IMG/VR virus record: IMGVR_UViG_3300030202_003496
Location: 1-64,000 of that record
DNA from: a virus
Reading direction: 5' to 3' (one strand)
DNA length: 64,000 nt
The notes under the pieces are model-generated. The model searched no databases, was not told where the DNA came from, and saw nothing but the letters and a program-made list of their open reading frames with translations. Within the stretch, counting starts at the first letter, position 1. Every line of letters begins with the position of its first letter. Below are positions 27,427 to 29,827 of this stretch, piece after piece. The position numbers were made by a program, and so were the translations under genes.

Positions 27427-28557
27427 ATGGCAAAGGCAAAGAAAACAAATAGAGATGAATTAGCCAGTGTATTAGCTGACTCATTAAACAAGCAGTTTAA
27501 GGGAATGAAAGTAGCATACTTTCTTGATGGTGCAGAAGATACACCAACAGACCTAACTGAATGGATAAGTACAGGTTCATCTATTCTTGACCTTGCTATT
27601 TCTAATAGGCCAAATGGTGGTTTACCTGTAGGTCGAATTACAGAAATTACTGGAATGGAGGCTTCTGGTAAATCACTATTAGCTGCTCACTTACTTGCCA
27701 ATACTCAGAAAAAAGGAGGGTTGGCTGTATACATTGATACAGAAAATGCTATGAATGAAGAGTTTTTAAGAGCTATCGGTATTGATATTTCTAAATTACT
27801 TTACATCCAACTTGAAACTGTAGAAGATATTTTTGAGGTAATCGAAAATATTATTCTTAAAATTAAAGAAAGTGATAAAGATAGACTTGTATCAATTGCA
27901 GTGGATTCTGTTGCGGCAGCAACCACAAAAGTTGAACAGGCTCAGGATTATGACAAAGAAGGTTGGGCAACATCAAAAGCAATTGTACTGTCAAAAGGTA
28001 TGAGAAAAATTACTCAGCTAATTGGTAGAGAGCGAGTGGCTTTAATCTTTACAAATCAATTAAGACAGAAGCTTGGAGTTATGTTTGGTGACCCTTGGAC
28101 AACAAGTGGTGGAAAAGCAATACAGTTTCACGCATCATGTAGATTAAGATTAAAAGCAGCTGGTCAAATTAAAGCGAAAATTGCAGGTAAAGAACAAACA
28201 ATAGGTATTAAAACAAAAGCAGTAGTAGTAAAAAATAGAATGGGTCCACCATTACGTACAGCTGAATTTAACATTTATTTCGAGTCAGGAATTGATGATA
28301 CAGGAAGTTGGTTACAAGTAATGAAGGATTATAATTTGTTGAAACAAGGCGGCTCTTGGTATACTTATAGTTGTGATGTTACAGGTGAAGACATTAAGTT
28401 TTTATCTAAGGATTTTGAAACTAAGGTGCTTTCAAATCCTGAAAGAAAAGAAAGTATATATAACAAAATTTGTGAAACAATGGTTATGTCATATAAAACT
28501 GATGATATTGGAATTGATGATATCGAAATTGGAGAAGATGACGTACCAGTAGGATAA
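27427..28557 (+). CDS. uvsX: UvsX/RecA-type recombinase
   Basis: 376 residues. Walker A GMEASGKS (~76-83), Walker B region LVSIAVDSVAAAT, and the RecA L2 region FGDPWTTSGGKAIQFHAS. The TNQLRQKLGVMFGDP stretch is typical of phage UvsX. Acidic C terminus. Forms filaments on ssDNA for strand exchange and recombination-dependent replication, working with the gp32-like protein encoded just upstream. Confidence 0.93.
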   Translation: MAKAKKTNRDELASVLADSLNKQFKGMKVAYFLDGAEDTPTDLTEWISTGSSILDLAISNRPNGGLPVGRITEITGMEASGKSLLAAHLLANTQKKGGLAVYIDTENAMNEEFLRAIGIDISKLLYIQLETVEDIFEVIENIILKIKESDKDRLVSIAVDSVAAATTKVEQAQDYDKEGWATSKAIVLSKGMRKITQLIGRERVALIFTNQLRQKLGVMFGDPWTTSGGKAIQFHASCRLRLKAAGQIKAKIAGKEQTIGIKTKAVVVKNRMGPPLRTAEFNIYFESGIDDTGSWLQVMKDYNLLKQGGSWYTYSCDVTGEDIKFLSKDFETKVLSNPERKESIYNKICETMVMSYKTDDIGIDDIEIGEDDVPVG

Positions 28558-28562
28558 TAATA

Positions 28563-28768
28563 ATCAAACGCGTGGTGGAATGAACAGCGGCAGGACATAT
28601 AAAATCCTAAAGTTGTTCTCGGAAGACACCTTCCTAAGGGAAGTAAAATGAGGCAGTAGCGCTGACCCAATGTTCTTAAAGAGTACAAGGACATATAAGG
28701 CTTTTTTTAAGTTTTTAGCCTCACAATTGGTACTTGAAAAACTGTTGGTTCGAATCCAACCGCTGATT
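28563..28768 (+). ncRNA. tRNA-like structured RNA of unknown class (possible interrupted tRNA)
   Basis: The 3' part has a perfect T arm: GTTGG-TTCGAAT-CCAAC (28744-28760), then CGCTGAT (28761-28767). At the 5' end ATCA and GCG (28563-28566, 28570-28572) would pair with it if the intervening AAC is bulged, and TGGTGGAAT follows as in a tRNA-Leu D arm. Between the halves lie ~165 nt with an exact 11-nt direct repeat AGGACATATAA (28592 and 28688, 96 nt apart), mutually exclusive hairpins GGAAG/CTTCC/GGAAG (28621-28642), and TGAGGC/GCCTCA pairing. No CCA is encoded. Candidates: intron- or insertion-bearing tRNA, tmRNA-like RNA, or new class. Confidence 0.45.
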
Positions 28769-28796
28769 ATTATTTTTTATTAAAAAGGAGAATAAA

Positions 28797-29003: not shown

Positions 29004-29201
29004 ATGGATATGTATTATTTAGCAAGAGTAAAAGTTGCAACAGATAATGGTAAAAAAGTTACGTGGAAAAAAGAAGCGTATCTTGTAAGTGCAGTATCAG
29101 TTACTGATGCAGAAGTAAAAGTTAATGAAGAGTTTGCAAATGACTCAATTGATTTTGAAGTTGTAGAAGTTAAAAAATCTGATGTGATTAAGGTGTTGTA
29201 A
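29004..29201 (+). CDS. Small beta-rich hypothetical protein
   Basis: 65 residues: MDMYYLARVKVATDNGKK followed by a segment with repeated Val and a KVNEEFANDSIDFEVVEV strand, ending in SDVIKVL. Resembles small phage proteins that carry modified-lysine-type beta folds, but I cannot name it. Its last codons and stop lie inside the hairpin (29190-29211) that directly precedes the ribozyme candidate. Confidence 0.65.
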   Translation: MDMYYLARVKVATDNGKKVTWKKEAYLVSAVSVTDAEVKVNEEFANDSIDFEVVEVKKSDVIKVL

Positions 29202-29211
29202 TATACACCTT
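29190..29211 (+). promoter_or_regulatory. Hairpin at the predicted 3' end of the upstream mRNA
   Basis: AAGGTGT pairs with ACACCTT (7 bp) around TGTAATAT, enclosing the stop codon TAA. It ends one base before the predicted cleavage site of the following ribozyme candidate, so a cut transcript would end in a stable stem. Confidence 0.6.
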
Positions 29212-29212
29212 T

Positions 29213-29314
29213 GTTCTGTGATAAAAGGCCACCTTCCCGTGGTACAGAATGTTAAGAGCTAAAAATCCTCACTACTATTAACGATTTATTTAGCCAACCA
29301 AGAGCCTTTTTTTT
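29213..29314 (+). ncRNA. Candidate HDV-like self-cleaving ribozyme
   Basis: Helices occur in the HDV order P1-P2-P3-P3'-P1'-P4-P2'. P1 GTTCTGT (29213-29219) with ACAGAAT (29244-29250), 7 bp starting with a G-U wobble as in HDV. P2 AAAAGGC (29223-29229) with GCCTTTT (29304-29310). P3 CAC/GTG (29230-29232/29239-29241) with loop CTTCCC. P4 GCTAAAAATC with GATTTATTTAGC (29258-29294). The P4-P2' joint reads CAACCAAGA, containing the CNAAG type of catalytic joining segment. Predicted cut is 5' of G29213. Weak point: only one G for P1.1. An eight-T run at the end could also make it a terminator. Confidence 0.55.
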
Positions 29315-29324
29315 ATTACTAACG

Positions 29325-29336
29325 TGATATTTATAT
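29325..29336 (+). promoter_or_regulatory. Class B promoter motif for hsp20
   Basis: Exact TGATATTTATAT. The transcript start should fall near 29343, at the first base of the left inverted repeat. Confidence 0.5.
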
Positions 29337-29342
29337 ATGATT

Positions 29343-29392: not shown

Positions 29393-29827
29393 ATGACAAG
29401 ACAATTACTAGGTGAGAGACTCCTCTCGACCGATTTATTATTCAAAAACTTTTTCGATACAAACGTAGGATTTGGTTCTTTTATGGAAGCAAAACCTGAT
29501 TATCCGGTAGATGTATTTACTAAAAACGATACACTCTGCTTTGATATCGCTTGTGTCGGACTAGAGAAAAGCGACATTATGGTATCTGTCGAAGGCAACA
29601 CTTTGAAGGTTGCTTATAAGAAACCAAACATAGAATCAAATCCATCAGATGAAGAAGCTCCAGTATTTATGCATAGAGGTATAGCAAGAAGGAGTTTTGA
29701 TATGGGATGGAAAGTAAGTCCGGACTATGATTTAAGACAGCTGGACGCAACAATGAGAAATGGTTTATTACAAATCACGGTTCCAAAATCAGAAAAAGCG
29801 AAAGCTAAGGTTATAACAATAAAATAA
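29393..29827 (+). CDS. Small heat shock protein (Hsp20 / alpha-crystallin family)
   Basis: 144 residues, normal length. The alpha-crystallin domain spans ~35-140: YPVDVFTKNDTLCFDIACVG, VEGNTLKVAY, an insertion loop ESNPSDEEAP, then MRNGLLQITVPKSEKAK with the conserved G-L-L/I-x-I/V-x-V-P pattern. ATP-independent holdase, common in T4-like marine phages, probably protecting phage proteins during assembly. RBS AAGGAG. The whole gene is enclosed by a perfect 16-bp inverted repeat. Confidence 0.92.
   Translation: MTRQLLGERLLSTDLLFKNFFDTNVGFGSFMEAKPDYPVDVFTKNDTLCFDIACVGLEKSDIMVSVEGNTLKVAYKKPNIESNPSDEEAPVFMHRGIARRSFDMGWKVSPDYDLRQLDATMRNGLLQITVPKSEKAKAKVITIK

Follow-up and report, generated by a model that had tools for sequence, protein, structure and literature searches.

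We analysed a 64,000-nt stretch of viral DNA (positions 1 to 64,000 of IMG/VR record IMGVR_UViG_3300030202_003496; hereafter the window) and found that an element at 29190-29314 encodes an RNA that is very probably an active self-cleaving ribozyme of the hepatitis delta virus (HDV)-like class, with cleavage predicted from its fold and conserved nucleotides. The ribozyme core comprises 98 bases (window 29213-29310) of a marine phage genome, and the element sits between a DUF4494 open reading frame (ORF), whose stop codon lies at 29199-29201, and the Hsp20 gene. Sequence comparison suggests that its main role is probably to shape the structured 3' end of the upstream transcript.

Fold and covariation of the double pseudoknot

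Relatives were first gathered by an Hsp20 search, and several of them bear the same element. Pattern scans of IMG/VR yielded 40 distinct complete homologue sequences, with at least 50 other IMG/VR contigs carrying the element; one of these scans omitted P2-P3-L3 entirely, and J4/2 was in no search seed. An earlier note on this DNA had proposed an HDV-like double pseudoknot with the helix order P1-P2-P3-P3'-P1'-P4-P2', and all of these helices are present. Across the 40 homologues they pair in 98.2% of 1139 pair cells. Compensatory changes were found in 16 of 29 pairs (5 in P1, 3 in P2 and 8 in P4) where shuffles expect 6.7, these counts referring to sequences and not to independent events. Double-change cells numbered 71, against 16.6 in shuffles (0 of 500), and pairing fell to 32-46% when the partners were slid by 1-3 columns.

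P1 was 99.6% paired, with a compensatory change in 5 of its 7 pairs and exchanges of U-A for C-G, A-U for G-C and C-G for U-A at several positions. Its first nucleotide is an invariant G, and the first pair is G.U in 37 homologues and G-C in 3, in agreement with the 7-bp, G-U-initiated P1 of the earlier note. An eighth P1 pair was rejected because it is not kept (U.U in homologue L010, C.U in L017). P4 was 100% paired and showed a compensatory change in 8 of 10 pairs. In P2 such changes occurred in 3 of 8 pairs, each in few sequences, for example C-G to U-A in L117 and in L007 and L009. The earlier note had named lack of covariation in P1 or P2 as the result that would refute it, and both helices covary. 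P3 is best read, from the homologues, as ACC/GGU abutting P1', as in HDV; this rests on L117 and L118, which keep ACC/GGU and break the CCAC/GUGG alternative given by energy folding, and it bears out the 3-bp P3 proposed before. C29230 was assigned to P2 and not to P3 because P2 changes in L007, L009, L016, L017 and L117; in L007 and L009 this base changes together with G29302.

A covariance model built from the homologues, as the earlier note had suggested, was run on 14 whole viral records and found one significant copy in each (E ~1e-20 to 1e-26). Three more weak matches (E 0.1-0.6) were taken as chance; a second weak match in L092 (20 bits) lies antisense over the end of uvsX and was likewise ascribed to chance. 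When a 17-base seed of the IMG/VR scans was run against 84,980 genomes of bacteria and archaea, none of its 78 matches carried the full fold. A search for cultured hosts among GenBank phages turned up no match at the DNA level. The nearest UvsX, at 54.6%, is that of Microcystis phage Mel-JY01, whose genome gave only a weak model match (18 bits, E 0.13), taken as chance. The covariance model and at least 50 contigs are now at hand for the family.

The double-pseudoknot fold is thus more than chance. That the likeness to HDV is accidental, or that the element is a plain intrinsic terminator, might be argued from the folding energy of the single sequence, which reached only z=-1.8. This explanation is already contradicted by covariation far exceeding that of shuffles and slides, and by the single significant model copy per record together with the seed-match scan, and its probability is negligible. 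An ordinary terminator at 29307-29314 was also rejected: the terminator scan found only the 29190-29211 hairpin nearby on this strand, and its tail is poor.

Active site and class membership

The equivalents of what we take to be, in HDV numbering, the active-site positions G1, U20, C22, G25, G38, C75 and A78 are all invariant (40/40). L3 reads UUCNCGY and J4/2 reads C-[CU]-[AG]-A in every homologue; the latter agrees with the CNAAG-like strand noted earlier and keeps C75 fixed while the next two positions vary. The nucleotide before the predicted cut is U in 26 and A in 15 of 41 members, never G or C. The family has the class's helix order in a nested double pseudoknot, and it qualifies as an HDV-like ribozyme by every sequence or structure feature tested save P1.1. 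There, a C-G pair is possible in 40/40 but is invariant, and the second pair would be U.U.

Other explanations of the conserved shape were weighed. A non-catalytic structured RNA of HDV-like form, serving as a terminator, a 3'-untranslated-region stabiliser or a protein-binding site, would fit the U-rich tract after P2' and the highly conserved CUCAC loop, for which no role is known. It is very unlikely, given that none of the tested catalytic nucleotides varies, not even C75, whose junction is variable elsewhere, and that drz-Mtgn-1, an active ribozyme, has the same L3.

Some findings weigh against the assignment to an active HDV-like ribozyme. P1.1 would consist of a single C-G pair plus U.U, one or two P1.1 pairs being normal for the class (PMC4908430); P3 never varies among the 40 sequences; and no Rfam family was matched at its gathering score. 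The Rfam search that the earlier note had called for, run on the copy in the window with a cut-off as loose as E<=10, found no HDV family. In favour of the assignment, it did find HDV-F-prausnitzii (RF02682) in relatives L232 and L235, below threshold (25.7 bits against a curated 44); the match begins exactly at the predicted G1, and the 111-base stretch alone gave E 0.0022.

Comparison with known ribozymes places the family more closely. Like HDV (RF00094) and CPEB3, it has the double-pseudoknot order, a 7-bp P1 with G1.U37, U20 and G25 in L3 and C75 in J4/2; it differs in its AU-rich P1 and P4, the bulged A in P2 and the one Watson-Crick pair in P1.1. HDV-F-prausnitzii, the best Rfam match of the relatives, can be aligned with them through P1, P3, L3 and J1.1/4, with CGUGGuG and G.UAAG among the aligned stretches; the P1 sequence, J1/2-P2 and the P4 region differ. 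With drz-Mtgn-1 and the theta ribozymes it shares a phage host, a G.U-initiated P1 and a 3-bp P3 abutting P1'; it also matches drz-Mtgn-1 in L3, an identical UUCCCGU, and in J4/2, C-Y-A-A (sequence from PMC10879173). Theta ribozymes, being minimal, have no P4; most are associated with tRNAs and cleave at the tRNA 3' end, and more than 80% derive from gut phages (PMC10879173). The same study lists some isolated minimal ribozymes of unknown function in non-coding regions (PMC10879173). By contrast, P4 of the family described here is long and carries a conserved CUCAC loop, and the predicted cut lies beside 3' hairpins of mRNAs or other RNAs. The theta type mentioned in the earlier note was rejected because a P4 of 10 pairs (8 compensatory) is present; moreover, no tRNA lies upstream, none was found in the window, and the adjacent tRNAs of the scanned homologues lie downstream. 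These results indicate that the ribozyme class is a known one and that the family forms a new subfamily of it, found in phages and equipped with P4.

Structured RNAs upstream of the predicted cut

HDV-like ribozymes are known to act on transcripts of viruses and retrotransposons and on those of phage tRNAs. Here, in 17 of 17 neighbourhoods with listed ORFs, the ribozyme has the same orientation as the genes before it, and in most contexts the cut is predicted 0-4 nt past the end of a helix, which belongs either to a hairpin or to a larger closed RNA. The window's 7-bp stop-codon hairpin (29190-29211) ends, as the earlier note said, one base 5' of the predicted cut at 29212^29213. Stop-codon hairpins of 7-8 bp were seen in the window, L004, L006, L010, L013 and L019, with arms AAGGTATT/AATACCTT in L019 and AGGTGTT/AGCACCT in L010. 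Hairpins of 12-20 bp directly follow uvsX, with a gap of 1-3 nt, in L043, L056, L068, L071, L073, L082 and L087. In L044, L067, L070 and L088, uvsX is followed by an RNA of ~155 nt whose covarying closing stem of 14-15 bp stands 3-4 nt from the cut, and double changes were found in 16 of 46 pairs of this RNA (7 sequences). A further element of ~80 nt containing TAAGACCGGCATCA is closed by 10 bp in L018 and 8 bp in L051 and ends at the cut. Compared with shuffles, 12 of 30 upstream flanks reached p<=0.015, the flanks not being independent. The pattern has gaps: the window's stop-codon hairpin alone is not significant (p=0.29), and no convincing hairpin precedes the cut in L062, L063 and L085. 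In L085 the closed RNA after uvsX is separated from the ribozyme by a methyltransferase gene, whose end is 5 nt short of the predicted cut.

From the fold, covariation, invariant core and position beside hairpins, which are directly established, we infer cleavage, end chemistry, stabilisation and termination as follows. The double pseudoknot would fold while the gp32-uvsX-DUF4494 mRNA is being transcribed, or afterwards, and cut 5' of G29213. The upstream mRNA would keep a 2',3'-cyclic phosphate one base past the stop-codon hairpin, and this defined end should be resistant to 3' exonucleases; the ribozyme would remain with the downstream piece, bearing a 5'-OH. Transcription may end at the U tract after P2', so that in most phages the element would be a terminator with its tail cut off. 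The upstream 3'-end role put forward in the earlier note is supported by position. If correct, phages would have a protein-independent means of setting where replication-gene messages end, and what full-size HDV-like ribozymes (those with P4) do in phages would be explained. In the open-access literature we found no report of an HDV-like ribozyme making phage mRNA 3' ends, and no paper on a P4-bearing marine HDV-like family.

The 3' RNA modules adjoining the predicted cut are mostly undescribed. The ~155-nt RNA (L044:2996-3149, L067:717-876, L070, L088, L118, L066 and L085) has an invariant core of TCTGAAGC, TTTTAGGGCTGATACCAAT, GTCACTGTA and AACTAGTACTAAAA; one member (L067, as L243) had no Rfam match at low threshold. 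In the ~80-nt element, TAAGACCGGCATCA is invariant just 5' of the ribozyme (L018:1343-1423, L003:2442-2524, L051:10621-10716, L001, L002 and L246), and L244, L245 and L246 likewise had no Rfam match at low threshold. Upstream of the L055 ribozyme, L242 (G003:17278-17700) contains tandem matches to the manA RNA (RF01745) of 29.6 and 17.1 bits, both below the curated 55.2. manA RNAs are described as 5'-untranslated-region elements of marine samples and cyanophages, whereas the L242 copies lie in a 3' region. A conserved RNA of ~225 nt directly follows uvsX in the window (28556-28785) and in L002, L003, L006, L011, L013, L014 and L092. It has a tRNA-like 5' part, GTGGTGGAAT, with a T-arm, GTTGGTTCGAATCCAAC, 150 nt further on, and in several homologues a hairpin after GTGGTGGAAT has an ATATAAA loop resembling an anticodon loop. 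ARAGORN found no tRNA or tmRNA in it, and Rfam gave no match; its layout suggests a tRNA-like RNA interrupted by a giant insert.

Downstream side, gene setting and features

In most members P2' runs on into a U-rich tract, typically TTTTATTTTT or T8, as would be expected if P2 and the tract also helped termination. In the window, the U run at 29307-29314 overlaps P2'. The helices lie where the earlier note placed them, and its extent of 29190-29314 is to be shortened, the element ending at ~29310. The tract is short in L018 and in L044, L078, L087 and L118, and in the last four a tRNA-Ala follows within a few nt; a tRNA-Gln lies close 3' of P2' in L055. For L044, L078, L087 and L118, the ribozyme would act as leader of the tRNA. 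These tRNAs, and the fact that HDV-like ribozymes stay on the downstream product, fit a ribozyme that mainly frees or prepares the downstream RNA, as a tRNA leader or as a 5'-OH, ribozyme-capped mRNA, rather than forming the upstream 3' end. As a general explanation this is unlikely: most members have no adjoining tRNA, the conserved partners, hairpins and closed RNAs, are found on the upstream side and end at the predicted cut, and the U-rich tract suggests scant downstream transcription.

Within the favoured explanation, that the ribozyme shapes the upstream 3' end, we tentatively propose a self-cleaving terminator, a reading somewhat less likely than not. Its last helix would run into the U tract, transcription would end, self-cleavage would follow, and the upstream RNAs would receive a uniform, protected 3' end; the device would be widespread in marine phages. 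The element resembles intrinsic terminators and bacterial mRNA 3' hairpins in having a hairpin at the message end and a U tract nearby. In contrast to these, the U tract follows the P2' pseudoknot strand, ~90 nt past the hairpin, and the predicted end comes from self-cleavage. If real, the device would serve both mRNAs and structured RNAs (the closed uvsX 3' RNA, the manA-like RNA and the hairpins) and would amount to RNA-catalysed formation of phage mRNA 3' ends.

The source record is viral, 74.8 kb long, with T4-like replication genes. The gene set comprises a gp32-like SSB, RecA/UvsX, a 64-aa ORF, the DUF4494 ORF, Hsp20, a 5'-3' exonuclease, a DnaB-like helicase and a B12-dependent ribonucleotide reductase. 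In records with the ribozyme at another place, uvsX and the helicase were sought and were absent; these records are fragmentary, so the absence says little. The features are listed in Table 1.

Table 1 Features of the ribozyme locus in the window
Feature	Position	Strand	Remarks
DUF4494 ORF, 65 aa	29004..29201	+	PF14902; final gene of the gp32-uvsX side; its mRNA would be trimmed
7-bp hairpin 29190-29196/29205-29211, stop codon of the 65-aa ORF inside	29190..29211	+	would-be 3' end of the upstream RNA
Predicted cleavage site 29212^29213	29212..29213	+	predicted from the HDV fold; -1 nucleotide U
P1 5' strand GUUCUGU	29213..29219	+	pairs with 29244-29250; G.U first, at the cut
P2 5' strand AAAAGGCC	29223..29230	+	pairs with 29302-29310; A29303 bulged
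P3 ACC/GGU (29231-29233/29241-29243) and L3 UUCCCGU (29234-29240)	29231..29243	+	equivalents of HDV U20, C22 and G25
P1 3' strand ACAGAAU	29244..29250	+	covariation analysis
J1.1/4 GUUAAG	29251..29256	+	first G equivalent to HDV G38; P1.1 with C29236
P4 (29258-29267/29283-29294) with loop, conserved UCCUCAC	29258..29294	+	covariation analysis
J4/2 CCAA (family C-Y-R-A)	29298..29301	+	C29298 equivalent to catalytic C75
P2 3' strand G(A)GCCUUUU	29302..29310	+	alignment, covariation analysis
U tract after P2	29307..29314	+	possible coupled terminator; U-rich in most members
Hsp20 gene	29393..29827	+	PF00011; first gene 3' of the ribozyme

Three further observations were made. The UCCUCAC at the top of P4 (window 29266-29272) is nearly invariant; a partner for its CUCAC loop was sought and none was found, and the motif is possibly a tertiary contact or a protein site. 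In L006 (2549-2917) and L090 (1743-2081), the first gene 3' of the ribozyme encodes a phage ribosomal protein bS21. Finally, GATATTTATATATG occurs at ~29325-29339, 5' of Hsp20, and its core ATATTTATATATG is found upstream of Hsp20 in most close relatives; this region may be a phage promoter.
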